Shown: in pieces, positions 16,137 through 35,725 of the stretch | Numbering within the stretch: position 1 is the first letter of the stretch | Layout: every line of letters begins with the position of its first letter | Source: Erysipelothrix urinaevulpis | Lineage (GTDB): Bacteria > Bacillota_I > Bacilli_A > Erysipelotrichales > Erysipelotrichaceae | Length of the DNA stretch: 64,000 nt | Reading direction: 5' to 3' | Assembly (NCBI RefSeq): GCF_009828835.1 | Contig: NZ_WTTB01000003.1 | Location: forward strand, 186,001 to 250,000 | Notes under the pieces: generated by a model | Told to the model about the DNA's origin: nothing | Seen by the model: the letters and a program-made list of their open reading frames with translations, nothing else | The model's database searches: none | Program-made: the position numbers and the translations under genes

Positions 16137-16149
16137 ATATCTATTATAC

Positions 16150-18901: not shown

Positions 18902-18913
18902 CCTAATCCACTC

Positions 18914-20045: not shown

Positions 20046-21896
20046 TTAATATTTTCTTGTTTGTTTGACTGCTTCTTTCATTTCATCATATTTCTTTTGA
20101 ACATTATCATTCGCTGTAACTTCACTCACACCAACTCTCCACCAAGAGCTATAACCTTCTGTCATTGTCTTAGGCAGAACTTTAATGTCGAATAAGCATG
20201 CTCTAGTTTGTGTTTTTGAATCTTCTAGAGCGGCAAGTAATTCTTGTTCATTGTATATTTTATAGGTTTTTGCACCTAAACTTTGGGCGTTCATTGCGAA
20301 ATCAATTGGGACATAATCGCCACTTAATTGATCTGTTTTCTCATCTCGGTATCTAAAGACTGTTCCGAATGATTCACTCCCTTGGTTGTTTTGTAGGTTT
20401 TCAATACATCCCCAACCATGGTTGTCCATGAGGATTATATTAATTTTAATTCCTTCTTGGATTGCTGTGAATAATTCACTGTGCCCCATCAGATAACTAC
20501 CGTCGCCACACATTGTATAAACTTCTTGTGTTGGGGCTGCCATCTTCACACCTAGTGCTCCGTTGACTTCATAACCCATGCATGAGAAACCATATTCAAC
20601 ATGATATGTTTCCGGTGTCGAGGGTCTCCATACACGTTGTAAATCTCCTGGTAAACTTCCCGATGATCCAACAACAATCGCATCTTTGGCAATAGTCTCA
20701 TTGATAATTCCTAAGGCTCGAGTTTGCGAGAAGCCATAGCCTGGTTTGTGGTTGTAAAGTGCATCCACAATGCTGTCCCATTCTTCTTTAGCTTTCACAA
20801 TTTCATCTGTGTAGCTTGATTTATAATCTTGAAGTTCTTTTCCTAAAGTTTCTAAACCAAGTTTAGCGTCACCGACGATTGCGGTAGCATTCATCTTTAT
20901 ACTGTCAAACGTATTCACATTGAGAGTGATGATGTTTGCTGACTCTTTAAACAAGCCTTTTGATCCTGTAGTGAAATCACCAAGACGGGTTCCTACAGCT
21001 AAAATAAGATCTGCTTCTTTTGCTATTTCGTTTGCTGCTTTGCTACCCGTGACACCGATTCCACCAAGCATCAGTTCATGATTCCAAGGAAGCAAGCCTT
21101 TACCAGCTTGTGTTTCTCCCATTGGAATATTAAATTGTTCTGCGAAGTCTTTCAGTGCTTCACCAGCTAAACTATACCGTACACCACCCCCGACAACAAT
21201 CAAGGGTTTCTTTGCTTCTTTGATTTTTTCGGCTGCTTCTTTAATTGAACGATCGCTTGGAATGGGACGATCCATATACCAAACACGTTTGTCAAAAAAC
21301 CAGCGTGGATAATCATAACTTTCGGTCTGGACATCCTGAGGTAAAGCGATGGTGACAGCACCTGTATCACTAAAACTTGTGAGTGTGCGCATTGCATTCA
21401 TCATGGCACTGATCAATTGTTCAGGACGATTGATGCGATCAAAGTATTTTGATACGGCTTTAAATGAATCGTTGGCTGTAATCCCGACGTTATATTCTTG
21501 TTCAATTTGTTGAAGAACAGGGTCTGGTTGACGGTCTGCAAAGGTGTCACCAGGTAATAGAAGTAATGGAATACGATTGGCTGTTGCTGTTCCTGCTGCA
21601 GTGACCATATTTAAAGCACCCGGTCCGATTGATGACACACAAGGAATAATTCCTAAACGATTTTTTTGTTTAGCATAGCCAATTGCTGCATGTGCCATAT
21701 TTTGTTCGTTATGACCTTGGTAAAATTTGATGGATTGTCCAGGTTCTTGCAAACCTTGCCCAACTCCCAATACACAACCATGACCAAAGATTCCAAACAT
21801 ACTGTCTACATATTTATGGTCTTCTCCATCAATTGATACATATTGTTGATCGAGAAACTTTAGCAATGCTTGGGCCATTGTTAATTTAATTGTCAT
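20046..21896 (-). CDS. iolD: 3D-trihydroxycyclohexane-1,2-dione hydrolase
   Basis: ThDP-dependent enzyme that opens the six-membered ring of 3D-(3,5/4)-trihydroxycyclohexane-1,2-dione to 5-deoxy-D-glucuronate. At 616 aa it is slightly shorter than B. subtilis IolD but spans the whole fold. The N-terminal FGHGCVLGVGQGL and YQGHNEQNMAHAAIGYAK match IolD, where Glu activates ThDP. The C-terminal MCGDGSYLMGHSELFTA through ILMDNHGWGCIENLQ is the ThDP/Mg motif (GDGS...N). It is the last gene of the operon, 9 nt after the transaldolase gene, with RBS AAGGAGGGTCT. This unusual reaction ties the operon to cyclitol catabolism. Confidence 0.95.
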   Translation of the reverse strand: MTIKLTMAQALLKFLDQQYVSIDGEDHKYVDSMFGIFGHGCVLGVGQGLQEPGQSIKFYQGHNEQNMAHAAIGYAKQKNRLGIIPCVSSIGPGALNMVTAAGTATANRIPLLLLPGDTFADRQPDPVLQQIEQEYNVGITANDSFKAVSKYFDRINRPEQLISAMMNAMRTLTSFSDTGAVTIALPQDVQTESYDYPRWFFDKRVWYMDRPIPSDRSIKEAAEKIKEAKKPLIVVGGGVRYSLAGEALKDFAEQFNIPMGETQAGKGLLPWNHELMLGGIGVTGSKAANEIAKEADLILAVGTRLGDFTTGSKGLFKESANIITLNVNTFDSIKMNATAIVGDAKLGLETLGKELQDYKSSYTDEIVKAKEEWDSIVDALYNHKPGYGFSQTRALGIINETIAKDAIVVGSSGSLPGDLQRVWRPSTPETYHVEYGFSCMGYEVNGALGVKMAAPTQEVYTMCGDGSYLMGHSELFTAIQEGIKINIILMDNHGWGCIENLQNNQGSESFGTVFRYRDEKTDQLSGDYVPIDFAMNAQSLGAKTYKIYNEQELLAALEDSKTQTRACLFDIKVLPKTMTEGYSSWWRVGVSEVTANDNVQKKYDEMKEAVKQTRKY

Positions 21897-21905
21897 AGAC
21901 CCTCC

Positions 21906-22967
21906 TTATTGTTTTAATTGTTCTTTACGGATAATGACAAGGAGTTCATCATAGCCCCCAAAGAATTGTGTTAATGTTTTTTGTGTAGCACCTAAATGAA
22001 CAAAGTCTTCTGGTTTCATCCCTTCGGCAAGATACATCTTTTTGAAATCATCAACGTGCAAGAGTTCATCAATGATTGCTTGATCAACGGGCACATCAAT
22101 ACGTGATTCTACCTTATAATCCCCTTCATTGAATTTTTTAATCCATTTGTGTGGGATTGTCATTTCTAAATTACCACCGACAAAGTCTAACCATTGATTG
22201 TCGAAACGGTAAGCTGCTGCAAGCAAGGTAGTTCTGTAGCCTTTTTCTTGGAAAATTGTGTAAGCATTTTTCATGACGCTAACACCTGCTAATTCAAGAG
22301 CTTCTGGGCTCAAGTTTATGCCTTGAGTTTCTGCAGCTTCTTTGGTCCAATCACCAACACGTCCGACCATAATAGTACAGACAGGGTGCATGGTGGATGA
22401 GTCAAGACCTTCTTCTTCACGACGTTTTAATCCACGCTCGACAGCTTCTGCCACCGCTACGGCTTGGGCAACTGAGAATGATACTGTGGCATTGATACTT
22501 ACACCGCGATATGTTGCTTCTTCAAAGGCTTCGATTCCTTCTTTTGTTGATGGCATTTTGACTTGCATGTTTGGAGCAAGTGTTGAAAAATACTCAGCTT
22601 GATCCGCCATTTTTTCTGCACTACGGTAATATTTTGTATTCGTTTGAATTGAAATACGGCCTTTTTGTCCATTTGTTTCTTTGAAAATTGGCTCGAGAAG
22701 TTTGGCTCCTTCAATCGCTGTCATTTCAATAATTCTCCATGCAATTTCATCTTCTGTTTCGTTTGGATATTTCGCAACCATCTCTTGAATAATTGGTTGG
22801 TAAGTATCAAATTCTGCTTCAATAACATTCTTTACAATTACTGGGTTTGTTGTTGCTCCAACGGCTCCATATTCAATCGCATACTCTAATTCTGATATTG
22901 AGCATGAGTCGTTCCAAAAATCTGTTCCGTATTTTACGGCTGTTTCGTGTAATGGGCTTTTATACAT
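21906..22967 (-). CDS. transaldolase-family enzyme in an iol operon
   Basis: A Schiff-base class I aldolase fold. GAVGATTNPVIVKN (about 36-50) is the first transaldolase signature. MQVKMPSTKEGIEAF, with the Schiff-base lysine near residue 137-139, and GVSINATVSFSVAQA are the second and third. AGGAGG lies 6 nt before the ATG at 22967, giving 353 aa; an ATG two codons upstream abuts the Shine-Dalgarno. It sits between iolA and iolD where kinase (iolC) and aldolase (iolJ) genes would be expected; neither is in the window. I infer that it cleaves 2-deoxy-5-keto-gluconate and transfers dihydroxyacetone to glyceraldehyde-3-phosphate. Direct aldolase action on the phosphorylated ketose is the alternative. 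Confidence 0.85.
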   Translation of the reverse strand: MYKSPLHETAVKYGTDFWNDSCSISELEYAIEYGAVGATTNPVIVKNVIEAEFDTYQPIIQEMVAKYPNETEDEIAWRIIEMTAIEGAKLLEPIFKETNGQKGRISIQTNTKYYRSAEKMADQAEYFSTLAPNMQVKMPSTKEGIEAFEEATYRGVSINATVSFSVAQAVAVAEAVERGLKRREEEGLDSSTMHPVCTIMVGRVGDWTKEAAETQGINLSPEALELAGVSVMKNAYTIFQEKGYRTTLLAAAYRFDNQWLDFVGGNLEMTIPHKWIKKFNEGDYKVESRIDVPVDQAIIDELLHVDDFKKMYLAEGMKPEDFVHLGATQKTLTQFFGGYDELLVIIRKEQLKQ

Positions 22968-22977
22968 TGTCATCCTC

Positions 22978-24423
22978 CTAGCTCATCCAATCTGCTTTTT
23001 CTTCTGTATTCCATTTTGTTGTAATTTTTGTTAAATGTGACCAGAAGTCTAATGATAATTTACCTGTAATATCACCAAATCCGTATTTTGAACCCTTGAT
23101 TCCACCAAATGAGAATGGCTCACGTGGTACAGGAACCCCAATATTGACACCTAACATACCTGCTTGTAATCCTCTTAAAGCTTCATCAGATACACGACCA
23201 TTTTGAGTAAAGACTGAGCCTGCGTTTCCATAAGGTGATGCTTGTTGAATTTCAAGTGCTTCTTTTAAGTTGTCTGCTTCTACTACTTCTAAGACTGGTC
23301 CAAAGACTTCCTCAAGTGGCATCTTGTCTTGTAATCCACGCCAGTCAATTACGGTTCCACCAAAGTTATAACCTGGTCCGTGTTTTTGTGTGCGTCCATC
23401 AACAAGAATTTTTGCTCCGAGTTTTTCGGCATTTTCGATATAGTTTTCGATTTTTGCAATGGATTCCATTGAAACGATTGGTGGGATATCGACGCCTGCT
23501 TTTTGTGCTGTAATCTTTTCAACAACACTGTCTAAGATATGCTCTGAATCTCCTAGCATAACCATGACAGATGCCGCCATACAACGTTGCCCTGACATTC
23601 CAGTAGCTGATGCAACAATGTCAGATGGTGCACTGACTGGATGTGCATCTGGAGCCACGACAAGATAGTTTTTAGCGCCACCTAATGCAAGTGAACGCTT
23701 TAAGTTTGATGTAGCACGTTTGTAAACAATTTGCGCAACAGGTGTTGATCCTACAAATGATACAGCTTGAATTTGTGGGTGATCACTGATTGCTTCAACA
23801 GCATCCTTACCACCATTGAAAATATTGAAAATTCCATCAGGTAAGCCAGCTTCTTTCCATAATTTAGCCATCATTGCTGCACTTAAAGGTGTTAATTCTG
23901 ATGGTTTCACAATGATTGCATTTCCCATTGCGATGGCATTAGGAACTGTCCAGTGAGGAACCATTACAGGGAAGTTAAAAGGTGTAATGCTTGCGACGAC
24001 ACCTAATGGACGTCGTTCAGTACGACACACAACTCCACGACTGACTTCTTCAATTTCTCCTGCGGCTAATTGAGGAATAGAACATGCAAATTCTGTTAAT
24101 TCGATTGCCTTGTCAATTCCAGCGTATGCTTCACCCATGCTCTTACCATTTTCTTCATGGTTGATGACTGCTAATTCTTCTCTGTGTTTCAAGAGTAGGT
24201 TTCGATAGCTATATAAAACTTCCGAACGTTTCTTAAGGGTTAGTGCACCCCATGCTTGTTGAGCGATTGTGGCTGCTTCAACAATTTCATCAAGTTCTTC
24301 TTTTTTTGAATTATATGTTTGAGCAATTAATTCGCCATTCACTGGTGAGTAAACATCGATTAATTCACCCTTACTTTCTAACCATTGTCCATTTCCGTAA
24401 TTCTTTGATATTCCGTACTTCAT
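22978..24423 (-). CDS. iolA: malonic/methylmalonic semialdehyde dehydrogenase
   Basis: CoA-acylating aldehyde dehydrogenase that turns malonic semialdehyde into acetyl-CoA and CO2 with NAD. The catalytic Cys281 is in SGQRCMAASVM, the oxyanion Asn150 in ITPFNFPVMVPHW. The general base Glu of ordinary aldehyde dehydrogenases is replaced by the LGGAKN motif (247-252), diagnostic of the MMSDH/IolA subgroup. The 481 aa length is normal. AAAAAAGGAGAAATT precedes the ATG. Its stop codon overlaps the RBS of the transaldolase gene, suggesting coupling of the two steps. Confidence 0.95.
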   Translation of the reverse strand: MKYGISKNYGNGQWLESKGELIDVYSPVNGELIAQTYNSKKEELDEIVEAATIAQQAWGALTLKKRSEVLYSYRNLLLKHREELAVINHEENGKSMGEAYAGIDKAIELTEFACSIPQLAAGEIEEVSRGVVCRTERRPLGVVASITPFNFPVMVPHWTVPNAIAMGNAIIVKPSELTPLSAAMMAKLWKEAGLPDGIFNIFNGGKDAVEAISDHPQIQAVSFVGSTPVAQIVYKRATSNLKRSLALGGAKNYLVVAPDAHPVSAPSDIVASATGMSGQRCMAASVMVMLGDSEHILDSVVEKITAQKAGVDIPPIVSMESIAKIENYIENAEKLGAKILVDGRTQKHGPGYNFGGTVIDWRGLQDKMPLEEVFGPVLEVVEADNLKEALEIQQASPYGNAGSVFTQNGRVSDEALRGLQAGMLGVNIGVPVPREPFSFGGIKGSKYGFGDITGKLSLDFWSHLTKITTKWNTEEKADWMS

Positions 24424-24436
24424 AATTTCTCCTTTT

Positions 24437-25219
24437 TTATTTAATTAAATGTTCAAAATATGGGTCGTTATAGAATTTCCATGTTCTTGTTGGTCCAGCC
24501 ATAACGTTTAAATAATATAGATCATAGCCTGGAGGAACCGCAACTGGGTGATACCCTTCTTTAACTAAGACAGCACTATCATGCTCTACAACAAAGACTT
24601 CATCCACAGATTTGTCATCATTGTATACACGTTGTAAAGCAAATCCTCCTTCTTGAGGGTTTAACTTATGGTAGTATATTTCTTCTAAATAAGATTGGTT
24701 TGGTAGATCATCTTCATCATGACGATGGGATGGGAAACTTGACCAATTTCCACCCTTTGTGATGACTTCAACCACTAATAAACTTTCTGCTGGTTCAGTT
24801 TCAGGAAGAATGTTTTTTGCTGTTCTTTGTATTTGACCATAGCCACGGTGTTCAACACTCATTGTTTCTGGCTTAATAATTCGACTTGGCATTTCTTTTG
24901 ATGATGGGGAGGTACAGATTGCTAATTCGACAGATGTAGTAGCAGTAAATGTTAATTGATCACCAAGTCCTAAATAGATCGCATAGGGAGCCACCTCTGC
25001 AAAAACAGTGTCTCGATTTCCAATATGTTCTAATGGATTATTGCCAACAGCAACATCGCCATAACCATATAATAAGACTACACATTGTTCTGTATTATCC
25101 AGAGCATTCACAGTATAACTTTGTTTTTCTTCTAATTTCACGATTTGTAAACCAGTGTATTCCATTTCTTCACCCATCGTAACAACAATGGGTCTATTTT
25201 TTTCAATTCTTGCTTTCAT
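24437..25219 (-). CDS. iolB: 5-deoxy-glucuronate isomerase
   Basis: Cupin-fold isomerase converting 5-deoxy-D-glucuronate (the IolD product) to 2-deoxy-5-keto-D-gluconate. SSFPSHRHDEDDLPNQSYLEEI, here given as its key parts SFPSHRHD and YLEEIYYHKL, includes the metal-binding His and Glu residues of IolB. The C-terminal GYHPVAVPPGYDLYYLNVMAGP is also typical. Length 260 aa is near the family norm of about 270. AAGGAGTAATTA precedes the ATG. It lies 13 nt from iolA and 3 nt from the upstream regulator gene. Confidence 0.94.
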   Translation of the reverse strand: MKARIEKNRPIVVTMGEEMEYTGLQIVKLEEKQSYTVNALDNTEQCVVLLYGYGDVAVGNNPLEHIGNRDTVFAEVAPYAIYLGLGDQLTFTATTSVELAICTSPSSKEMPSRIIKPETMSVEHRGYGQIQRTAKNILPETEPAESLLVVEVITKGGNWSSFPSHRHDEDDLPNQSYLEEIYYHKLNPQEGGFALQRVYNDDKSVDEVFVVEHDSAVLVKEGYHPVAVPPGYDLYYLNVMAGPTRTWKFYNDPYFEHLIK

Positions 25220-25222
25220 TAA

Positions 25223-27208
25223 TTACTCCTTTAAAAACTTATGTAAATGATTCCATAATGATTCTTGTGTATCAATCTCATCAAGACCTTTAATAAAGTT
25301 TAGATCATGACTTAAGCGATGAACATCTGCAATACTATGCAAGTGATCTTTCGATGTTTTGGCTGCAATAAAGAAAAATAAACGTCCTTCACGATTGTAA
25401 GGAAATTTAGTGGCTTCTTTAACAAAAACAACACTCACACTGGGTTTAAGGATGGAGGCATCGATATCTCCATGCGGTAAAACAATCCCATTTCCGATAA
25501 CATAATGACCATCATATTGTTCACCAATTTCAACAATCTCGTCCACATAGTCATACGTTACAATCCCTTGATCAACTAACAATTCTCCACTCATTTTAAC
25601 GGCTTTTTGCCAAGTTGGTACGCTCTTAACCACAGCAATTGCCTTAAAATCTAAATATTCTTTTAAAGAACGTGAACTTCGATTCATCGTTTGATGGTCT
25701 AATTGGTCATGTATTATTTGTACTTTTTCTTCTAACTGATCATTTATTTGTCGATAGCCTTCAAAATGTGCCGATAATAAGACATGATCGTCATCAGTCA
25801 TCAACGGTGAAACCTGAATAATCGGAATGCCTTGATAGTCCTGACGATTTAAATTAACCGTTGTCACAATTGCATCTAAATCTTTGACTTGCATATCATG
25901 AAGTCGTTGTGAGGCCACTAAAGCGACAATCTCAACATTGTAATCTTGTTTGAGAGTTTGATTCATAATTTGAGACGTTCCAAATCCTCCACCACAAACA
26001 AGAATAATTCGCTTCGCCTGAATCGTTTTGCTTCGCATCCTCTCAATACCTGCAAGGACGTGTAAGGTTATCAAATAAACTTCAGTATCTGTGATGAGTT
26101 CAGCATCAATAAAGTCTAGCTTTAAGAGCGAATCCCTGACAATATCCAAATATTTTTTTACTGAATCACTTTCACTTAACACAATATCGACATCGTTATT
26201 AATACCTCTCAACATCCGATAAATTGTCGGTCTAATATGATTCAATAAACCTTCTAAAAGACGATCATCTTGGGTTAGATCATAGCCGCTAGCCTCTGAG
26301 ACTTCTTTGATAATATGATTAATTATTAGAACAATATCAACCCAGCGTTCCACAATAATACTACTCGACTCATTACCAAGAATTCCTACCGACTGATTTG
26401 ATATCCAAATAATGTCTTGTTTATCCAAACTAACACCTAATATCTTATTCAATCGATCAACATAACTCGCAATCACGTTATACAACGCTTGATCTCTAAT
26501 CGTTTGTTTACTTTCTATCGTATGATTATTTATTTTAGCCAAATAAGCAATCAAAACAATGACCCGAATTGATTCATAATAATTCGTATTGTCATTTTGA
26601 AATTGAGCCGAGATTTCTTGAAATAACTCATACAATTCTACTTGATCAATATCCAATAATTGTGAGGATAAATAATCATTGGTTGGATTTAATATACTTG
26701 TTGTTTTTAATTGATTCTGACTCATTAACAAGGCTGCCGAGATTTCATGAAGTTGAACATTTCGTATCACCAATTCATCAGCAACAATGCTATTTTCCAC
26801 AACTGATAATCGTTCATCTAAATTTTTTATTACGTCTGTTAAATCAGAACGAATCGAGGTACGACTAACCTCCATCTCTTTTGACAACAACGTCAAATTA
26901 ACATGACGTTCTATCAATAAGCGTGTTTTAACATAATCCATTCTTTCAAGTTTAGTATACTTATTCAAAGCTTGTAAAATTCCAAGGACATCCGTTTCAT
27001 TGTATTGAGATGGTATCGTAAGTTCTCCAGCTTTTTCTCGTGTAATTTCTGGAATATTGTACGCTTTTAAAACATAGTTTAAATTGTCTAGATCATACCG
27101 TAAGATACGATCACTAATATCTAAACGATTTAAAACATCTTGTACTTTTATCTGTTGCTTATTTTTTAGAAACTCAGCCAACACGATGACTCTTGAACTT
27201 ACGTACAT
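25223..27208 (-). CDS. PRD-containing transcriptional activator with EIIB and EIIA domains
   Basis: A 661 aa LicR/MtlR-type regulator. N-terminal helix-turn-helix segments cover about 1-140 (VQDVLNRLDISDRILRYDLD, then LLSKEMEVSRTSIRSDL). Two PTS regulation domains (about 190-400) follow. Next come an EIIB-like P-loop with CGGGFGTSQ (about 405) and a C-terminal mannitol/fructose-type EIIA with GIVLPHGDID (His near 577). Phosphorylation by HPr and by the operon's own permease would report substrate flux. It is embedded in the middle of the 11-gene operon, so positive autoregulation is likely. It should bind DNA, since it lacks a CAT RNA-binding domain. Confidence 0.92.
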   Translation of the reverse strand: MYVSSRVIVLAEFLKNKQQIKVQDVLNRLDISDRILRYDLDNLNYVLKAYNIPEITREKAGELTIPSQYNETDVLGILQALNKYTKLERMDYVKTRLLIERHVNLTLLSKEMEVSRTSIRSDLTDVIKNLDERLSVVENSIVADELVIRNVQLHEISAALLMSQNQLKTTSILNPTNDYLSSQLLDIDQVELYELFQEISAQFQNDNTNYYESIRVIVLIAYLAKINNHTIESKQTIRDQALYNVIASYVDRLNKILGVSLDKQDIIWISNQSVGILGNESSSIIVERWVDIVLIINHIIKEVSEASGYDLTQDDRLLEGLLNHIRPTIYRMLRGINNDVDIVLSESDSVKKYLDIVRDSLLKLDFIDAELITDTEVYLITLHVLAGIERMRSKTIQAKRIILVCGGGFGTSQIMNQTLKQDYNVEIVALVASQRLHDMQVKDLDAIVTTVNLNRQDYQGIPIIQVSPLMTDDDHVLLSAHFEGYRQINDQLEEKVQIIHDQLDHQTMNRSSRSLKEYLDFKAIAVVKSVPTWQKAVKMSGELLVDQGIVTYDYVDEIVEIGEQYDGHYVIGNGIVLPHGDIDASILKPSVSVVFVKEATKFPYNREGRLFFFIAAKTSKDHLHSIADVHRLSHDLNFIKGLDEIDTQESLWNHLHKFLKE

Positions 27209-27220
27209 GTTTTACGCTCC

Positions 27221-27985
27221 TTAAAGTAATGTTTTCAAATGATTTAAACTACGTTCAATGCTATTAAACATCCCAATTTTACTGTAATCTTGTTCAATAC
27301 AGAAATACTCAACACCATGTTCTTTTCCAAAATCAATAATAGCTTTAAAATCAACATCTCCATCACCACAAGCGACAAGATTATTTTCAAAATCATTGGG
27401 ATCTAAACTCGTGATGCAATCTTTCATATGAACAATTGGCATTCTACCTGAGAAATAGTGCATTTCTTTTAATGGATCATGACCAGCAATGCTCATCCAA
27501 TAAGTATCTGGTTCTGCATAAATACCGATTCCATTGACGGGATCCGTAATATACTGCATAACTTTACGACCATTAATTGTATTGTTGTAGTCATATTCTG
27601 GACAATGTAATCCAATTGAAAAACCAAGTGTTGATAACTTTGAAGCAGCTTCTATTAATGCTTCTTTTGTCTTAATGTAACCGTCTGTAGTTTGATCTTC
27701 ATCTTCAATGTACTTGTCATAAAGAACTTTACAGTTAAAGACGTAAGCTTCTTCTAATATTCCATCAAGATCGTTGAAGAATCGATCATGTTTGATGTGT
27801 AATCCAACAACTTCAAGTTCATATTTTTTTAGTAGATTCGCAAATTCATACATGTCATTACCACGCATACCATCGACTTGTACATATTTAAAACCCATTT
27901 CAGCAACCTGTTTCAACGTTCCTTCTAAATCTTTTTCAATTTCTTTTCTAAGTGAGTAGAGTTGTAATGCAATTTTAGCTGTCAT
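27221..27985 (-). CDS. IolE/IolI-like TIM-barrel isomerase or lyase
   Basis: Sugar phosphate isomerase/epimerase family (AP endonuclease 2 fold), 254 aa. Metal-ligand-like residues occur in GLHIKHDR, GLHCPEYDY, YAEPDTYWM, MPIVHMKDC and EYFCIEQDYS. Members in inositol operons include IolE (dehydrates 2-keto-inositol) and IolI (isomerises inosose). Relatives elsewhere cleave 3-keto-glycosides by beta-elimination. In this operon it lies between the aldo/keto reductase and the downstream ring-opening genes, so it should make the IolD substrate. The RBS is TTGGAGGATTAAT. Which of the three activities applies cannot be read from sequence. Confidence 0.82.
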   Translation of the reverse strand: MTAKIALQLYSLRKEIEKDLEGTLKQVAEMGFKYVQVDGMRGNDMYEFANLLKKYELEVVGLHIKHDRFFNDLDGILEEAYVFNCKVLYDKYIEDEDQTTDGYIKTKEALIEAASKLSTLGFSIGLHCPEYDYNNTINGRKVMQYITDPVNGIGIYAEPDTYWMSIAGHDPLKEMHYFSGRMPIVHMKDCITSLDPNDFENNLVACGDGDVDFKAIIDFGKEHGVEYFCIEQDYSKIGMFNSIERSLNHLKTLL

Positions 27986-27986
27986 A

Positions 27987-28940
27987 TTAATCCTCCAAAT
28001 TTAAATAGTTTACGTCTGCTTCATTTAGTTCTATTTTCGCACCCTCGATTGATGATCGTAATTCTTCAATACGTTCTGACCCAATGGCTGCAGCTGTTGG
28101 GAATTTTTGATTCAAAACGAATGACAATGAAATTTGAATGGGTGATACATTTTTCTTTTCAGCCATTTCCACAGCACGATCGAAACGTTTCCAGTTGTTG
28201 TCATTATAGAAGACATCAACCATTTCTTCATTTTCTAACTTGTCTGGTGCGAAGGCGCCTGAGAAGAATCCACCTGCTTGTGATGACCATGATAATAGTG
28301 GCATCTGTGTTTCTTTATGGAAGTCAATCATTGTCTGATCGGCTGTAACACATCCTGGCCAACGTGGTTTATTGACTTCAGCTAAACTAAGGTTTGGACT
28401 ATTAAATGTGAACGGTCTTAAGCCTTTTTCTTTCGCATAATTATTTGCTTCAATAATGCGATCTGTCTCCCAGTTAGATGTCCCAATTGCATAAACTTTA
28501 CCTTCTTGAATCATTTCGTTCAATGCTTCCATTATTGGGCCTACCTCTTGAGTGATATCATCACGATGTAAAGCAAATAATTCTACATGATCAGTTCCAA
28601 GCATTTCCAAACTCTTTTCAATATCTTCACGGATTGCAGTTGGATTGACACGTGGTGTATCTGGAAACTCACGAACTGGATGACATCCTTTTGTAAAGAT
28701 AACGACGTTATCACGGTTGTTTTTTTCTTTCATCCATGTGCCAAGTGCTAACTCACTGTGACGATAATGACGCGCTGTATCAAATGTTGTGCCGCCATTT
28801 GCAATAAATTCATCTAAGATGGGAGCTGCTACATCCATGTTATCTTTTCTTAAAAAATCTCCTGATCCCATCATAATTTGTGATAATTCAATATCTATAA
28901 TTTTATTATCTTTTAAACCTTCTACTTTAATTGTTCTCAT
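27987..28940 (-). CDS. aldo/keto reductase
   Basis: NAD(P)H-dependent oxidoreductase of the COG0667 class, 317 aa. The catalytic tetrad is visible: FDTARHYRHSE (Asp and Tyr near 54-59), IFTKGCH (Lys near 84) and LFALHRDD (His near 125). The ORF overlaps the upstream deaminase gene by 14 nt, with AGGAGGGCATC before the ATG. B. subtilis iol contains an AKR, IolS, of uncertain role. Because no IolG dehydrogenase is present in the window, I infer that this enzyme oxidises the cyclitol ring before the TIM-barrel enzyme acts. Confidence 0.9.
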   Translation of the reverse strand: MRTIKVEGLKDNKIIDIELSQIMMGSGDFLRKDNMDVAAPILDEFIANGGTTFDTARHYRHSELALGTWMKEKNNRDNVVIFTKGCHPVREFPDTPRVNPTAIREDIEKSLEMLGTDHVELFALHRDDITQEVGPIMEALNEMIQEGKVYAIGTSNWETDRIIEANNYAKEKGLRPFTFNSPNLSLAEVNKPRWPGCVTADQTMIDFHKETQMPLLSWSSQAGGFFSGAFAPDKLENEEMVDVFYNDNNWKRFDRAVEMAEKKNVSPIQISLSFVLNQKFPTAAAIGSERIEELRSSIEGAKIELNEADVNYLNLED

Positions 28941-29673
28941 GATGCCCTCCTAATAGCTTTGCTGCACCTTTATCAATATAGAGATAACCTGATGCATGAT
29001 TTCTAACTAAACTTGAAGGCACTGCATTTGATACTTCACCTTCAACAGTTGCTTTGATAATTTCTGCTTTCTTTTCAGCATTCGCAATTAATATCACGTG
29101 CTTCGATGCTAACAATGTCTTTAATCCTAAGGTAATTCCTACTTTTAAATCCAATTCTGTGTCAAAATATTTCTTGCCGACTTCTTTGGTCACTGGATCT
29201 AAAGGAATAATACCGGCTTCAAGTTCTAAATCTGCTCCTGGTTCATTAAAACCAAGATGACCATTCATGCCAATTCCTAATAGTGATATATCAATACCAC
29301 CAAGCTCTTTCACAATCGTTAAAATACGCTGTGATTCGGCTTGTAAATCAGTAGCCTTACCATCAAAAAAGTGCACATTATTCTCTAAGTCTATGCCTAA
29401 AGGAGTGTAAAGTGCATCATATAATGTTTGATTTGTACTTCCTTTTGTGTCATATCCTAAACCACCCCACTCATCGAGTGAAACAAAATGAACTGATGAT
29501 AAATCAATGTCATCATTATTCTTCATTTTTATGAGGTTTTGGAATATTTCGAGTGGAGTTTCTCCGCCTGCAAAACATAAAACTGCATCGGGTTTTTCGT
29601 TAATTATTTCCACAATTTTATTGCATGCTGCTTGTGAGGAAGCTGCATGATTCTTTGAAATGATAATTTTCAT
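28927..29673 (-). CDS. glucosamine/galactosamine-6-phosphate deaminase-isomerase family
   Basis: Member of the NagB/AgaI family, 248 aa, which converts amino-sugar 6-phosphates to ketose phosphates and ammonia. LCFAGGETPLEIF, SLDEWGGL and GIGMNGHLGFNEPG mark the active site. Canonical NagB has DGH at the last motif; here Asp is Asn (NGH), as I recall for E. coli AgaI. The ATG at 29673 is chosen because AAGGAGATATATT precedes it. It is the first enzyme after the PTS genes, which suggests that the imported compound contains a hexosamine phosphorylated at C6. Activity with the Asn variant is uncertain. Confidence 0.85.
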   Translation of the reverse strand: MKIIISKNHAASSQAACNKIVEIINEKPDAVLCFAGGETPLEIFQNLIKMKNNDDIDLSSVHFVSLDEWGGLGYDTKGSTNQTLYDALYTPLGIDLENNVHFFDGKATDLQAESQRILTIVKELGGIDISLLGIGMNGHLGFNEPGADLELEAGIIPLDPVTKEVGKKYFDTELDLKVGITLGLKTLLASKHVILIANAEKKAEIIKATVEGEVSNAVPSSLVRNHASGYLYIDKGAAKLLGGHHENN

Positions 29674-29730
29674 AATATATCTCCTTAAAAGTAACAAAGT
29701 TAAGGCAGTAACCTCAACTTTGTTTGATTA

Positions 29731-31050
29731 TTAAAAGTCTAAGTTTAATGCTTCTATTTCTTTATCTCTATCTGTTTTTTCAACTGAATCTTTAACATCC
29801 AAACTACGTTCATACATCTTAAAGAATGGGTAATACATTAAGATTGCTAAACCGATAATTACAAAGAACAGTACAATTGCTCGCCAATCCATTGTCGTTA
29901 AATATTGCGCTAAAACTACAGGAACACCACCAACATGCACGACAGGTGGTCGAACTATTCCCCATTTAAATACCATAAATGATAATGCTGATAATAAAGG
30001 AACTCCAAATACAAATGGAATAAATAGGTAAGGATTAAATGCAATCGGCAACCCGAACACAACGGGTTCAGAAATTGTGAAGATCATTGGAACAAATGAT
30101 GCTTTTCCAATCGCCTTTAAATCTTTACGTTTACTCATAATCGCTAAAATAACAAGAGCCCCTGTGATTCCACTTCCTGTCGCTCCCATAAAGTAGTCCC
30201 AATATGTTGGCGCAAAGACATGTGGAATCGCTTGTCCAGCTTGATATGCTGCGGCATTTGCAGCTAAGTATTGAGTCATAAACGGCATAACAAATCCGAT
30301 GAGGATTGCATAGCCATTTAATCCAATAAACCAAAATAACATTTCTAAAAATGAGATGATGATCACTGCCCACACAGTATCAATACTTCCTAAAGAGGGT
30401 GCTAATACAGATGTAAATGCTTCAGGAACAATTTGACCACCAGTCAACGCTCCAACCGCTAAATTAAGTCCTAATGCTAATAATAAGACTGTAATCATTG
30501 GAACAATTGATTCAAAGGTTTGAGAAATCATTTCTGGTAAACCTTCAAATCGCATCGTAAATTTATGTTTAATAAAGAAACTCATAATTTCAACGGATGT
30601 AATCGAAGCAATAATTGAAACAAATAATCCACGTGAATCTAAGTATTGCGTATCCATCACACCATCCACAATCTTAACGTTTAAGATCATCGTTGCAATA
30701 ACTGCCCCAATAATCCCATGAGTAATGGGAACATTCAACGTTCTTGAATGATTATATGAGATTGAAATTGCACTGTATAATGCCAGTAACCCAAAAGTAA
30801 AATTAAAGGGTAAATTAAGAATTTCCGCATTGTTAACAAAGAAATTATGAATCGCTCCACCAGCAGGAAATAATTGTCCAATTGCTGAAATAACGAGCGT
30901 AAATGATCCTACCATCAAGACTGATATAAGTGCCATCATTCCATTCTTAATGGATTGAATATGACGTTGTTTTTCAATCTTTGAAGCAATAGGACCCAGA
31001 TGAACTTCCAACATATCAACAGTTTTTGTCATTAAGTTTTTCGATGTCAT
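29731..31050 (-). CDS. PTS lactose/cellobiose-family EIIC
   Basis: Membrane permease of the PTS, 439 aa with about ten hydrophobic segments. It forms the channel that moves and presents sugar for phosphorylation by the IIB encoded just upstream. GLNGYAILIGFVMPFMTQYL and ISEPVVFGLPIAFNPYLFIP are hallmarks of the cellobiose/diacetylchitobiose/lactose IIC family. Its ATG follows the IIB stop by 1 nt, with GGAGG 9 nt upstream. This family usually carries disaccharides, which bears on the substrate of the inositol-type operon. Confidence 0.94.
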   Translation of the reverse strand: MTSKNLMTKTVDMLEVHLGPIASKIEKQRHIQSIKNGMMALISVLMVGSFTLVISAIGQLFPAGGAIHNFFVNNAEILNLPFNFTFGLLALYSAISISYNHSRTLNVPITHGIIGAVIATMILNVKIVDGVMDTQYLDSRGLFVSIIASITSVEIMSFFIKHKFTMRFEGLPEMISQTFESIVPMITVLLLALGLNLAVGALTGGQIVPEAFTSVLAPSLGSIDTVWAVIIISFLEMLFWFIGLNGYAILIGFVMPFMTQYLAANAAAYQAGQAIPHVFAPTYWDYFMGATGSGITGALVILAIMSKRKDLKAIGKASFVPMIFTISEPVVFGLPIAFNPYLFIPFVFGVPLLSALSFMVFKWGIVRPPVVHVGGVPVVLAQYLTTMDWRAIVLFFVIIGLAILMYYPFFKMYERSLDVKDSVEKTDRDKEIEALNLDF

Positions 31051-31051
31051 C

Positions 31052-31399
31052 TTAGTTTGCCTCCGTTTGATTTATTCGTAAATAAATCGCTTGTTTAAGG
31101 ATATTGGCGCCATTAACTGTTCCATAATCTTTGGTATCAATGACCTCAATGGGCTTTCCACGCTCATCACAAATTTCTTTTAAATCTAAGAATCGATGTT
31201 TGATTTGTGGTCCGATCAGGACAACATCAAAGTGATCGATGTATTCTTTAATATCACTTGCAGGATGTGCTTCTATTAAAACATCAACATCCTTGAGTGC
31301 TGTACTGCCTGCTGCGATTTCTCGCATCTTTGTTACCATGACGCCTGTTGACGCCCCTAAATTACAACAAAGCAAAATATTAAGTCTTTTAAAGTCCAT
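31052..31399 (-). CDS. PTS lactose/cellobiose-family EIIB
   Basis: Cytoplasmic phosphocarrier of 115 aa. ILLCCNLGASTGVMVTKM, near the N-terminus, holds the phosphorylatable cysteine (Cys12) and P-loop. I choose the ATG at 31399, 7 nt after the IIA stop; a TTG farther upstream lies inside the IIA gene. The upstream AAAGAGAG is a weak RBS, so translation may rely on coupling to IIA. Confidence 0.9.
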   Translation of the reverse strand: MDFKRLNILLCCNLGASTGVMVTKMREIAAGSTALKDVDVLIEAHPASDIKEYIDHFDVVLIGPQIKHRFLDLKEICDERGKPIEVIDTKDYGTVNGANILKQAIYLRINQTEAN

Positions 31400-31406
31400 G
31401 AATGAT

Positions 31407-31706
31407 CTACTCTCTTTCTTTATACCCTTCAATTAACTCTTCCGCAATTGATTCAAACATAACTGTATTCATCAATGTATCCTGCGCATGGATAACAAGT
31501 AAAGACAGTTGGTTATTAATATCTGGAATTTCCATCAGCACCTTGTTGATGCGTTGTGCTTCAAGAATTGAGGCTTGAGCCTCCTTCATCAAGACAACTG
31601 AAGATTCGTAATCTTTACGTCTTGCAGCTTGTATTGCTGTACGTAATGTTGCGAATGCATCACCTGCATATGAAATAATTCCAAAACTTGTTTCTTCTAT
31701 ATTCAT
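31407..31706 (-). CDS. PTS lactose/cellobiose-family EIIA
   Basis: Trimeric helical phosphocarrier of 99 aa. LLVIHAQDTLMNT carries the active-site His73, and GDAFATLRTAIQAAR is the typical N-terminal helix. The start is the ATG at 31706, with GGAGG 5 nt upstream; another ATG four codons earlier overlaps that RBS. First gene of the 11-gene operon; the promoter is near 31743-31771. Confidence 0.92.
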   Translation of the reverse strand: MNIEETSFGIISYAGDAFATLRTAIQAARRKDYESSVVLMKEAQASILEAQRINKVLMEIPDINNQLSLLVIHAQDTLMNTVMFESIAEELIEGYKERE

Positions 31707-31742
31707 AAAGGCCTCCACTAATGATTAACTAATCACACTTAG

Positions 31743-31836: not shown

Positions 31837-32706
31837 TTAATAGTCAATAACTTCCACCTTGTAATTATTTTGAATCATCGAATGAATGTGAAGTGCTAAA
31901 TATCCCACTTCACTTTCTTCGAGTTTGATGTGATAAATCTTTGATATATGGTCTGCAACCATCGTTGCAATTAGGTATTCTTGGGGTGCAAGTGAAGCAA
32001 TTGAAGCATTCAAATTATTTTGTACAGGAATTTGTTGAACCGAACGACGAATTGCAAATTCTAGATGATTGACAAATCGCATATAATAACGCGAACTAAT
32101 CTCTATTTTTTGACCGATTTCTCGTTCTATAATCATTCGGACTTCATAATTAATTTGATTAAACTCCAAGACTTCAGATACACCTTTTTTTGTTAAGGAT
32201 GCATGAACATGAAGCACAATAAAACTTAATTCATCTTTTGGAAATGATAAATCAGTGTTTTCATTAAGGTACTTTAAAACCCAACCAGCAAATTCAAACT
32301 CTTCTTTGTAATAAATTTTTAATTCGTTCATAAATGGATACGTGATGTTTATACCTTGTTCCAAACGCTCAATTGCGAAGATCAAGTGATCAAGTAGAGT
32401 TATGTTTAAATTGGGATTAATGGCTTGATCAAAGACTTCATTTGCTTTTTCAACAATTTCTTGAACCGCTTGAATTAGCTTCTCATCTTTTGCTCTTTTT
32501 AAAATCGAATGATACGTTTCTGCTTCGTCACCTTCAAGCACAAGTAAGTTTTTTTCAATGGTTTCAGGCAATGTTATTTCCTCGCCAATATTTCTACGGA
32601 AACCAATTCCTTTGTGAAACAAAATTCTTTTCTGTTGACTTGTGTTATGACTACACATCACGGAATTGTGGTTTAGTACTCTTATAATTGTGTATTTATT
32701 GTTCAT
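31837..32706 (-). CDS. BglG/LicT/GlcT-family transcription antiterminator
   Basis: RNA-binding antiterminator of 289 aa. An N-terminal CAT domain (about 1-60: TIIRVLNHNSVMCSHN, FHKGIGFRRNIGEEI) is followed by two PRDs (about 65-165 and 170-285) with the expected histidines in LDHLIFAIERLEQ and FVNHLEFAIRR. It would bind the RAT hairpin in the leader of the glucose-class EIICB gene, upstream in the same transcript, and allow read-through past the overlapping terminator. PTS-dependent phosphorylation of the PRDs should couple this to sugar supply. The RBS is GAGGAAAAAGC. Confidence 0.93.
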   Translation of the reverse strand: MNNKYTIIRVLNHNSVMCSHNTSQQKRILFHKGIGFRRNIGEEITLPETIEKNLLVLEGDEAETYHSILKRAKDEKLIQAVQEIVEKANEVFDQAINPNLNITLLDHLIFAIERLEQGINITYPFMNELKIYYKEEFEFAGWVLKYLNENTDLSFPKDELSFIVLHVHASLTKKGVSEVLEFNQINYEVRMIIEREIGQKIEISSRYYMRFVNHLEFAIRRSVQQIPVQNNLNASIASLAPQEYLIATMVADHISKIYHIKLEESEVGYLALHIHSMIQNNYKVEVIDY

Positions 32707-32718
32707 GCTTTTTCCTCG

Positions 32719-34086
32719 CTAATCTAGTTCTTTTTCAAATTCTTCAACCAATTTTAGGAAATCAATTGATTGATTGGCTTCTTTTGTGAATGTCATGATT
32801 GGATTGGTAAAGAGGATAATATCACTCTCACGATGGCCTTCCACTCGAACATAACTATTTGATTTTAAATCAATGTCATGTGTTAAGGAACAAGATTCAT
32901 GGGTATGAACTATTTTTCCATCGACAATGACCTTCCACTGAATTGGTGTTTTTGATCGACCCATCATCGTATAAAGTCCTTCATCAACACGTGTTAATGG
33001 ATGAACAATCTTACCACTTGATGATTTATATTCAAATTCTACATCGTCATAACATGTCACAATGATTTTCCCTTGTTTTAAACCATCATAGAGATTGTTG
33101 ACGGATAAACCATCACAATGAATCGATGTTGTAGGGTAACCAATTGGGTATTTGTTATAGTAATTTTCTTTATGAGCATCGCTACCACCAACCCCTATAA
33201 GACAAATTCTATTTTTCCATAAAAAGTCGAAAAATAAAAGAGCTTTGTGATTATCTGTTTCCACTTCCCACAAATGAGGTGAATTGATAACCTCAAGATG
33301 GGTTATGTATTGCATATCAATATGATGTTGAAGATCAATCCCTTTAGCAAATGGATGATTAATACTAATTGGATGACCTTCCTTACTCAAATGCTTAAAT
33401 AAATCATTTAAAACATCCGATTTTGTGTCATTCTTAATAAAATAGGGTTGATAATCAATGATTCCGTTATAACCGTAGACATTGTAATGCCCAAAGTTAT
33501 CAAACGTAATCTCAACACCTGGAATAATTGGAGCCTGAATATTAGGATAATGCGTTGTTGCAATTGAATGTTCCGTGTGTGATAAGTAATCCAAACCACT
33601 TCGTTCAAATTCTTTCGCAATTTTCTCATAAGTTATTCGACCATCTGATGAATCAGAGTGTAAATGGATATCACCTTGATAATATCGACTTAATGTATTC
33701 CATACTTTAGAAAAGTCTTGAGTGTAAATTGATGTGTTTGCGTGGCTAGGAGCTGTGTTAGCTTCTTCAATATTGATTTCAAATCGACCACCCACTTGGT
33801 ATGGTTTAATAATTTCTAAAACCCATGCTCCTTCAACAATTTCTGTTCTTGTTGCACCATTGCTTAACATCGCCGTTAACTCGCCAAAGTAAAGATATTT
33901 TTGACGTGTTTTCATGGTGAATTGGGCCACTAATTCCTTATGAGGATTTCTTAGATGAATTAAAACATGTTCGAACGGAACCTCGACAAGTTCTAAACGT
34001 AAGAGTTTAGGGCTTGTCGTTTGATTCCAAATAAATTCAAAATATTCATAGTGTTCATTAACATTAAAATCACCTGAAAATTTCAT
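32719..34086 (-). CDS. CehA/McbA-like PHP-domain metallohydrolase
   Basis: A 455 aa protein in two parts: an N-terminal beta-rich region (about 1-125) and a PHP phosphoesterase domain. Metal ligands can be seen in GDIHLHSDSSDG (His141, His143), YLSHTEHS (His170, His173), GVEITFDNFGH (Glu192), SINHPFAKG and GGSDAHKEN. There is no signal peptide, so it acts in the cytoplasm. Its ATG follows the EIICB stop by one nucleotide and the RBS is poor, implying coupling. It could hydrolyse a phosphate ester or diester brought in by that permease. The true substrate is unknown. Confidence 0.82.
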   Translation of the reverse strand: MKFSGDFNVNEHYEYFEFIWNQTTSPKLLRLELVEVPFEHVLIHLRNPHKELVAQFTMKTRQKYLYFGELTAMLSNGATRTEIVEGAWVLEIIKPYQVGGRFEINIEEANTAPSHANTSIYTQDFSKVWNTLSRYYQGDIHLHSDSSDGRITYEKIAKEFERSGLDYLSHTEHSIATTHYPNIQAPIIPGVEITFDNFGHYNVYGYNGIIDYQPYFIKNDTKSDVLNDLFKHLSKEGHPISINHPFAKGIDLQHHIDMQYITHLEVINSPHLWEVETDNHKALLFFDFLWKNRICLIGVGGSDAHKENYYNKYPIGYPTTSIHCDGLSVNNLYDGLKQGKIIVTCYDDVEFEYKSSSGKIVHPLTRVDEGLYTMMGRSKTPIQWKVIVDGKIVHTHESCSLTHDIDLKSNSYVRVEGHRESDIILFTNPIMTFTKEANQSIDFLKLVEEFEKELD

Positions 34087-34087
34087 A

Positions 34088-35725
34088 TTACAGCCCTAAT
34101 TCAAAGCGAACATCTGCACTGACTGATGCAACATGAGCACCGTAAATAATTTGAACTGCATTGTCTAGACGAATGACACCCATTGCTTCGAGTGAGTTTT
34201 TCCATAAATAATCAGGGCCAACTTTTTCTGCATCTTTAACAACAACACGTAAACGTGAAATGCAATTATCCACATCAACAATGTTTTCTGCTCCACCCAA
34301 TGCTTCAATAATGCCTTGAGCTAGAGCTTGATCCGCGTCTTTTTTACTTAATTCTTTAATTTCTTTTTGTTGTTCTTCATAATCTTTCTTAGAATATAAT
34401 TTAATGTCTTCTTCACTTTCTAAACCTTCTTCACGTCCAGGTGTTTGGACTTGGAATTTTTCAATTAAGAATTTAAAGATGAAGTAAGTTGCTATGAAAA
34501 AGAGTGGGAATAAGAATAGGTATGGTTTCATATTTAGTTTTTCAGGTCTTAAGAAGAATGGTATCCAGTCTTTAAGATTTCCCTGATAAATTGATACTTT
34601 AAAGAATTCTGATAACATTTCAGCAAGTGCTGCTAATGGAACATGAACTAGGAAATATAACCAAGGTGCAACAAACAAGAACGTAAACAAGATTGGCTCT
34701 GTAATCCCAAATAATGTTGTTGATAGAATTGTTGGAATAAGAAGTCCAGCAACTTTTTTCTTGTTTTCTGGTTTCGCTGTTTTATAAATAGCAAATGCGG
34801 CTCCTGGGAATATTGCAAAGTTAACAATTCCTGAGCCTCCCATAAATGCTCTGACTAATAATTTGTCTGGTGTTGGTGATGCAAGTTGTGCTAATTGAAT
34901 TGCTGCATTACCTGTAACCAATACGCCATCAACAACCATGCTTCCACCAAGTTCTGTCCAACGCATTGGCAATGACAAGAGTGGGTGTAGACCAAATGGA
35001 ATGAGTGATTCCACAACTAAACGATAAATAAATGTACCCGCTAAACCACTATCATGAACAAATTGTGCAAAACTTCCAAATAATGAACCAATCAATGGCC
35101 ATGAGAAGTTAAAGAAAATCCCTAAAGCTCCCCCTGCTAGTAATGATAAGATTGGAACGGTACGTGTTCCTGAGAAGAATGATAAGACCATCGGTAATTT
35201 CGTACGATAGAATTTTTGATGAATAATTGAAATGATTGTTCCTACTGCAATACCACCAAAGACACCGGTACGGTATGTGAAGAACCCAAGTTCAGTTGTA
35301 AATAACGCAGCTTGTTTTGACGCTTCAATAGGATCAACCCCTGCATCAATTAACCCTTGAACAGTTTGTGTCGCTGCACTTAAACCAGCTTGTTTTAAGA
35401 ATGTTTGGATTGTTGCTTGCATTGCTAACCATGCAACTAAGGCTGAAAATGCTGCCCATCCTTTTTCATTTTTAGCAAGTGAGAATGCAACCCCAACTGC
35501 ATAAAGTACTGAAAGGTTTCCAAAAATAACATCTCCTAGCCCTTTCAAAATTAAGAAGAATGTAAAGATAGCACCATTTTCATAGGTACTCCAATTAATA
35601 CCAAGGGCAGATACAGTCATTTCATTTGTAAATGCTCCCCCTAAACCTAAAAGCAACCCACCAAGTGCAACCAGTGCAATTGGAACTAACATTGCCTTTC
35701 CGTATGTTTGTAACTTTTCTCTCAT
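34088..35725 (-). CDS. PTS glucose/maltose-class EIICB
   Basis: A 545 aa permease. The EIIC part (about 1-430) has about ten hydrophobic segments, with GGSMVVDGVLV and GITEPILFTFLFVAPW typical of the glucose superfamily. The EIIB part (about 460-545) contains DVDNCISRLRVVV with the phosphorylatable Cys. No EIIA domain is present, so it borrows one, as MalX/GlvC types do. First gene of the operon with the PHP hydrolase and the antiterminator. The RBS is AAAAGGAGGCTAAT. Substrate not resolved; an alpha-glucoside or related sugar is plausible. Confidence 0.92.
   Translation of the reverse strand: MREKLQTYGKAMLVPIALVALGGLLLGLGGAFTNEMTVSALGINWSTYENGAIFTFFLILKGLGDVIFGNLSVLYAVGVAFSLAKNEKGWAAFSALVAWLAMQATIQTFLKQAGLSAATQTVQGLIDAGVDPIEASKQAALFTTELGFFTYRTGVFGGIAVGTIISIIHQKFYRTKLPMVLSFFSGTRTVPILSLLAGGALGIFFNFSWPLIGSLFGSFAQFVHDSGLAGTFIYRLVVESLIPFGLHPLLSLPMRWTELGGSMVVDGVLVTGNAAIQLAQLASPTPDKLLVRAFMGGSGIVNFAIFPGAAFAIYKTAKPENKKKVAGLLIPTILSTTLFGITEPILFTFLFVAPWLYFLVHVPLAALAEMLSEFFKVSIYQGNLKDWIPFFLRPEKLNMKPYLFLFPLFFIATYFIFKFLIEKFQVQTPGREEGLESEEDIKLYSKKDYEEQQKEIKELSKKDADQALAQGIIEALGGAENIVDVDNCISRLRVVVKDAEKVGPDYLWKNSLEAMGVIRLDNAVQIIYGAHVASVSADVRFELGL

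Follow-up and report, generated by a model that had tools for sequence, protein, structure and literature searches.

A phosphotransferase-linked operon of Erysipelothrix urinaevulpis that may feed O-glycosyl-inositols into inositol catabolism

Layout of the operon and the search for a canonical front end

The 64,000 bp window of the Erysipelothrix urinaevulpis genome analysed here (assembly GCF_009828835.1, contig NZ_WTTB01000003.1, positions 186,001 to 250,000) contains an operon of eleven genes on the minus strand, from window position 31718 to 20046, in which the successive gaps from the first gene (EIIA) to the last (IolD) range from -26 to +57 bp. The first six genes encode the EIIA, EIIB and EIIC subunits of a lactose/cellobiose-type phosphotransferase system (PTS), a NagB-like protein, an aldo/keto reductase (AKR) and a TIM-barrel protein, respectively, and they are followed without a break by genes for a PRD regulator, IolB, an IolA-like dehydrogenase, a transaldolase and IolD (Table 1). 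A first-pass annotation, made from the sequence alone, had described the first six genes as a set that lacks a glycosidase, and this is correct; none is present within the operon, and the closest, a GH1-like protein, is encoded about 7.5 kb upstream (39171-40607) in a separate unit. The lac and cellobiose PTS disaccharide operons have the same EIIA, EIIB and EIIC, with their active His and Cys, and a PTS-controlled regulator, but the operon in the window is without their phospho-glycosidase.

IolB and IolD score above their curated cut-offs. The IolA-like protein and the PTS subunits are slightly to well under the equivalog cut-offs and well over those of Pfam (PF02255, PF02302 and PF02378 for the PTS), and the phospho-accepting His of EIIA (in HAQDTL) and Cys of EIIB (in LLCCNLG) are present. 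Relative to canonical myo-inositol catabolism (IolG-IolE-IolD-IolB-IolC-IolJ-IolA of Bacillus subtilis) the shared proteins are thus IolD, IolB and the IolA-like dehydrogenase, whereas the operon has the AKR, the TIM barrel and the transaldolase in place of the others, and the importer is a PTS where the canonical pathway has an inositol permease.

Table 1. Genes of the operon, in order of transcription, with window coordinates
Gene product	Position	Strand	Family evidence
PTS EIIA, lactose/cellobiose family	31407..31718	-	PF02255 73 bits, TIGR00823 63.8 bits; ATG start 31706
PTS EIIB, lactose/cellobiose family	31052..31432	-	TIGR00853 83 bits, PF02302
PTS EIIC, lactose/cellobiose family	29731..31050	-	TIGR00410 231.7 bits (cut-off 236), PF02378
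NagB/AgaI-like isomerase-deaminase, divergent subfamily	28927..29697, likely start 29673	-	PF01182
AKR, proposed inositol-ring oxidase replacing IolG	27987..28940	-	PF00248 163 bits
TIM barrel, proposed metal-dependent beta-eliminase replacing IolE	27221..27985	-	PF01261 39 bits
PRD/EIIA2-type PTS-controlled transcription regulator	25223..27208	-	PF00874, PF00359
IolB, 5-deoxy-glucuronate isomerase	24437..25219	-	TIGR04378 292.5 bits (cut-off 205)
IolA-like CoA-acylating (methyl)malonate-semialdehyde dehydrogenase	22978..24423	-	TIGR01722 409.5 bits (cut-off 448.5)
Transaldolase, proposed 2-deoxy-5-keto-gluconate transaldolase replacing IolC and IolJ	21906..22973	-	PF00923 142 bits
IolD, trihydroxycyclohexane-1,2-dione hydrolase	20046..21896	-	TIGR04377 923 bits (cut-off 715)

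The usual first enzymes of the pathway were sought in the whole assembly (1.91 Mb, about 93% complete). IolE gave no match at E ≤ 0.001, and the best matches to IolG (TIGR04380, 181 bits, cut-off 355) and IolC (TIGR04382, 93.7 bits, cut-off 300) are below the cut-offs; on this search, the possibility that the genome encodes an IolE or IolC at another site was rejected. Four proteins of the assembly belong to PF01261, namely an endonuclease IV-like protein, an epimerase-like protein encoded beside an ATP-binding cassette (ABC) sugar transporter, a xylose isomerase-like protein of the window and the TIM barrel of the operon. Given these contexts and the absence of an IolE, the operon TIM barrel alone is a good candidate in the assembly for the enzyme that makes the substrate of IolD. 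GFO/IDH-type dehydrogenases are encoded elsewhere in the genome, three of them in a non-iol context.

The operon is flanked on the same strand by a directly upstream group of genes (31837-35725) for a LicT-like antiterminator, a PHP-domain protein and a glucose-family EIIBC, possibly a separate phospho-sugar unit. After IolD, across a gap of 118 bp, come genes for an ABC transporter of the phosphonate type (PhnS2/T2/U2-like) and for a two-component system (13793-19927).

The AKR and TIM barrel in Listeria and Enterococcus

Translated searches of plasmid records, several of which are mis-filed chromosomes, gave two close relatives of the PTS/AKR/TIM module. The first is in Listeria monocytogenes; the PLSDB "plasmid" records in question, NZ_LR134399, NZ_LR134402 and NZ_CP030101 (loci L112, L137 and L138), are evidently chromosomal. 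There EIIA-EIIB-EIIC-NagB-AKR-TIM, in the same order as in the window, form a stand-alone operon near sigB, lmo0873-0879 in the EGD-e numbering. Identities to the window proteins are 63% for the TIM barrel, 57% for the AKR, 64% for EIIB, 61% for EIIC and 45% for NagB. The Listeria operon differs in having another regulator, of the BglG type and placed before the PTS, and in that the iol genes (iolA-iolB-iolC-iolD) are in a separate operon that retains a canonical iolC and has no such transaldolase. In the whole-chromosome record no protein exceeds the cut-off for IolE (best 38 bits, cut-off 290) or IolG (best 193 bits, cut-off 355). Listeria is inositol-negative in standard descriptions, and an iolABCD operon without IolE and IolG would be accounted for if the AKR and TIM barrel form the missing first half of its pathway. 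In a survey, iol clusters were reported for at least 97% of the L. monocytogenes genomes, when three of the four core genes are taken as positive (PMC9430895). The PTS of the module, called lmo0874-0876 in papers, was reported to be up-regulated intracellularly in every strain studied (PMC3464598). The open literature that we searched, here and below, has nothing relevant on lmo0383-0386 with inositol.

The second relative is carried by Enterococcus faecium megaplasmids, as a block on one strand that encodes the AKR and TIM barrel, an ABC sugar transporter, a regulator, lac-type EIIA-EIIB-EIIC and YitT, and continues with a GH38 alpha-mannosidase, a C1-type peptidase, IolB, IolC, IolD, an Fe-alcohol dehydrogenase, a GNAT protein, a GH125 alpha-mannosidase and ScrK. 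Its TIM barrel and AKR are 58% and 50% identical to those of the window, and its iol cluster keeps IolC and has no transaldolase of the operon type. The regulators of the window, Listeria and E. faecium are only 19-27% identical to each other. The GH125 gene of the block, for an exo-alpha-1,6-mannosidase (locus L115, 20424-21281), is truncated by an insertion sequence and lies beside an IS30-type transposase. No close copy of the module, that is none above about 31% identity, was found among 272 genomes of the same family, about 390 sampled at class level and about 390 at phylum level, a sample in which Listeria and Enterococcus are seemingly not included.

The AKR and TIM barrel recur with iol genes where IolE and IolG fall below cut-off, and for this reason we consider it probable that they replace IolG and IolE and supply the IolD substrate. 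That they feed IolD in some manner, as the first-pass annotation had it, is very probable in view of the pairing with iolB and iolD, but no IolE or IolG, in E. faecium and its presence beside iolABCD in Listeria. Neither protein is a member of the family it would replace. The AKR, with a complete D/Y/K/H catalytic tetrad, is of PF00248 and so of a different fold from the GFO/IDH-type IolG, and the TIM barrel reaches only 20.6 bits against the IolE model (TIGR04379, cut-off 290) and has HCPEYD where the IolE sequences have the active-site motif HHHMGT.

The best match of the TIM barrel among solved structures is 8BVK, AtOGE (E = 2e-18; the next solved relatives are at about 5e-6). AtOGE is a Mn-dependent O-glycoside beta-eliminase that works after oxidation at C3, on 3-keto-glycosides, with metal ligands H132, D163, H189 and E233 and catalytic H134 (PMC10628242). 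The four metal ligands align with identical residues in the TIM barrels of the window, Listeria and E. faecium. Because the nearest solved relative is AtOGE rather than IolE, an oxidise-then-eliminate mechanism is supported. The window system is like AtOGE and the C-glycoside eliminases (PMC10628242) in its TIM superfamily, its H/D/H/E metal site and an oxidising partner encoded alongside, but the TIM barrel has a Pro for the catalytic His, the partner is an AKR, and the proposed oxidation would be on the aglycone ring, so that the sugar would come off whole, as the 6-phosphate. The segments HIKHDRF.ND (residues 60-72) and H[CN]PEYD (125-134) set the module TIM barrels apart from all sampled relatives. 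K65 and H66 (in HIKHDRF), R41, D132 and K91 are notable among the residues common to the three and absent from the relatives, and might act as a replacement base or bind phosphate.

The same kinship allows a two-protein analogue of GH4, in which the AKR would oxidise C3 of a 6-phospho-hexosaminide, the TIM barrel would eliminate the aglycone, and the iol genes would use an inositol aglycone or be incidental. AtOGE does act on 3-keto glycosides, and the TIM relatives of about 30% identity adjoin GFO/IDH dehydrogenases, but the products would be free inositol, which neither this genome nor Listeria seems able to use for lack of an IolE above cut-off, and a 3-keto amino sugar, which is not a substrate of NagB; we think this arrangement very doubtful. 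Some AKR relatives are fused to a GFO/IDH dehydrogenase (Sinorhizobium medicae pSymA, locus L160, 5828-7831) or adjoin one (Paenibacillus cellulosilyticus, locus L139, 8983-10939). Neither has an iol or TIM context.

Alternatively, the operon may serve two substrates, with the PTS and NagB for an amino sugar or disaccharide and the AKR and TIM barrel as plain stand-ins for IolG and IolE on free inositol that enters by another carrier. In E. faecium the AKR and TIM genes are contiguous, apart from the PTS genes, and adjoin an ABC sugar transporter, and in the window the phosphonate-type ABC transporter genes follow IolD. This division is nevertheless improbable, as the Listeria PTS-NagB-AKR-TIM operon stands alone without an inositol carrier, and an amino-disaccharide would have neither a NagA nor a glycosidase to prepare it.

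Candidate substrates and the NagB-like protein

The pathway we favour is the degradation of an O-glycosyl-inositol, for which we judge the chances to be about even. The lac-type PTS would import the glycoside and phosphorylate its sugar at C6, the AKR would turn one hydroxyl of the inositol ring into a ketone, and the metal-dependent TIM barrel would expel the glycosyl oxygen beta to that ketone, giving the sugar 6-phosphate and the 1,2-dione for IolD. A glycosidase would be unnecessary, since the elimination itself releases the sugar. The NagB-like enzyme would then convert the freed hexosamine-6-phosphate to a ketose phosphate. The first-pass annotation had proposed such a scheme for a hexosaminyl-inositol, and its mechanism is supported in outline, while its substrate can still only be inferred.

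To see which glycosyl-inositols could enter this way, all pairs of ketone and leaving-group positions on D-myo-inositol were enumerated, and those that yield 5-deoxy-D-glucuronate after IolD hydrolysis were retained. Only three pairs qualify: ketone at C2 with leaving O6, ketone at C1 with leaving O3, and ketone at C4 with leaving O2. The first combines the carbon that IolG normally oxidises with the position at which glucosamine (GlcN) is attached in glycosylphosphatidylinositol (GPI) anchors, GlcN-alpha1,6-inositol. The mycothiol-type GlcN-1,1-inositol does not qualify, as with the ketone at either possible position the product would lack the configuration of 5-deoxy-D-glucuronate, so of the two natural examples named in the first-pass annotation the GPI type is allowed and the mycothiol type is not. 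Glucosamine alpha-1,6-myo-inositol or a GPI-type glycan fragment would be the likeliest individual substrate, but we offer this specific identification tentatively. Bacterial catabolism of GlcN-inositol has no relevant account in the literature searched. A free GlcN rather than an N-acetylglucosamine residue would fit an operon that has no NagA.

Linkage of galactose in galactinol is at O3 of inositol, which the enumeration also allows. A neutral-sugar glycoside such as galactinol, with the NagB-like protein as an aldose-ketose isomerase for the freed hexose-6-phosphate, would give the natural stereochemistry by way of the C1 ketone, and the divergent phosphate loop of NagB and its near-equal scores with galactosamine-6-phosphate isomerase models agree with it. 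The NagB motifs LDEW and NGHxGFNEP are, however, of the deaminase type, the operon has no tagatose-6-phosphate pathway genes, and the E. faecium alpha-mannosidases would be unexplained; a neutral sugar has accordingly little probability in our view.

The first-pass annotation also offered a simpler option, phosphorylation by the PTS of free inositol or an inosamine. The inosamine is not borne out, since NagB requires an acyclic aldose or ketose phosphate and would not act on a cyclitol amine. For free inositol, carbon mapping indicates that a phosphate kept on the ring would stop either the IolB step or the aldol cleavage, and the oxidised carbon, whose carbonyl would become the aldehyde of 5-deoxyglucuronate, could not bear one; by this known chemistry the option stands only for a phosphate that is eliminated, at the sole position that fits the later steps, with the AKR oxidising the ring and the TIM barrel expelling the phosphate. 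Phosphate leaves well, and the option would explain why an iol operon holds a PTS and lacks a glycosidase. The PTSs of the lac family usually take disaccharides, though, and neither NagB (in the window and Listeria) nor the E. faecium alpha-mannosidases would have a role, and we regard phosphorylated free inositol as quite improbable.

The operon NagB is below the curated NagB and AgaI cut-offs (193, 166 and 166 bits, cut-offs 326, 236.9 and 271) and is 33.5% identical to B. subtilis NagB. The equivalents of the catalytic Asp72, His143 and Glu148 are kept, within the motifs LDEW and NGHLGFNEP, features that fit some amino-sugar phosphate as substrate. Its phosphate loop is AGGETP in place of ATGGTP, with Lys for the phosphate-binding Arg172, and the Listeria copy has the same changes (AGGDTP and Lys; loop consensus AGG[ED]TP). 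By these residues the module NagB is a dedicated, divergent paralog.

Several observations weigh against the degradation of an amino-sugar-inositol by this route. The catalytic His134 of AtOGE is replaced by Pro in all three module TIM barrels and is kept in the IolE sequences and in twelve TIM relatives of about 30% identity, so another base must act in the module, and an AlphaFold prediction of the TIM barrel made without homologs has a pLDDT of only 38. AKRs ordinarily reduce, and the literature searched yielded neither an inositol-oxidising AKR nor a role for an AKR in inositol catabolism; a non-canonical IolG-type dehydrogenase may moreover be encoded elsewhere in the genome. As a canonical NagB is encoded beside NagA elsewhere, the operon copy is a second paralog, and this, with the changed phosphate loop, weakens plain glucosamine-6-phosphate as its substrate. 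The E. faecium block has no NagB, its EIIC is just 31% identical to that of the window, and its GH38 and GH125 enzymes may serve N-glycan mannose. The combination of a phosphorylating importer and a deaminase-like enzyme without a glycosidase is conserved in Listeria; the deaminase-like enzyme is of a divergent subfamily and missing from the E. faecium cluster.

Taken with these points, the more general reading, in which an O-glycosyl-inositol is phosphorylated on its sugar and the sugar phosphate is eliminated, remains evenly balanced. Its most specific form is a GPI-anchor core route, with PTS import of GlcN-alpha1,6-myo-inositol, oxidation of the inositol ring by the AKR and expulsion of the amino sugar by the TIM barrel, the same route in Listeria inside host cells, prior trimming of the glycan by GH38 and GH125 in E. 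faecium, and a transaldolase-based, kinase-free lower pathway in the window; the whole of this we consider possible but unlikely.

The transaldolase and the lower pathway

The lower part of the proposed pathway would run from IolD and IolB to 2-deoxy-5-keto-gluconate (DKG), whose dihydroxyacetone unit the transaldolase would pass to glyceraldehyde-3-phosphate to give fructose-6-phosphate and malonate semialdehyde; the IolA-like enzyme would convert the latter to acetyl-CoA. The transaldolase is a clear member of PF00923 (cut-off 27 bits), its VKMPST, GRVGDW and AYRFDN segments align with 1f05, and the active-site Lys and the phosphate-binding Arg motifs (GRxxDW, xxR) are present. DKG has at C3-C4 the D-threo arrangement of fructose, for which reason a transaldolase could split it to malonate semialdehyde. 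The sulfofructose transaldolase of sulfoglycolysis (BmSF-TAL) embodies the same idea, a C6-acidic ketose that is split with transfer of the three-carbon unit to glyceraldehyde-3-phosphate, but the window enzyme is a long (355 amino acids) TalA/B-like protein with weak similarity to 8BC3 (E = 4e-6), and its proposed acidic product is malonate semialdehyde.

Relatives of the transaldolase were found in 75 loci, about 35 of which have iolD within the fetched stretch. Petroclostridium (L006) has IolG, IolE, IolD and IolB with the transaldolase and without IolC and IolJ, and the clusters of Sarcina (L026) and Holdemania (L076) appear similar; in selenomonads (L049) the transaldolase gene is between those of IolJ and IolC. 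The occurrence beside iolD in several clusters without IolC and IolJ suggests a kinase-free lower inositol pathway, in which the transaldolase probably stands in for these two enzymes; the literature searched has no account of a transaldolase in inositol catabolism. Five Erysipelotrichaceae loci (L058, L061, L062, L019 and L020) lack IolD and encode an IolB-like isomerase, an aldolase of class II, a transaldolase of this same family and an Fe-alcohol dehydrogenase; DKG-like acids may be reached there by a different route.

The PTS-fed AKR and TIM barrel are probably a variant of inositol catabolism whose setting is wider than the window. They suggest a specific and testable role for the L. monocytogenes iolABCD operon, and tie it to a PTS with reported intracellular induction. 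If the pathway is as proposed, oxidation and elimination as a means of glycoside cleavage would be widened to the aglycone side, inositol breakdown would have a second, transaldolase-based way to completion without IolC and IolJ, and Gram-positive bacteria of the gut and of host cells would gain glycosyl-inositols, possibly including GPI-anchor glycans, as carbon sources.

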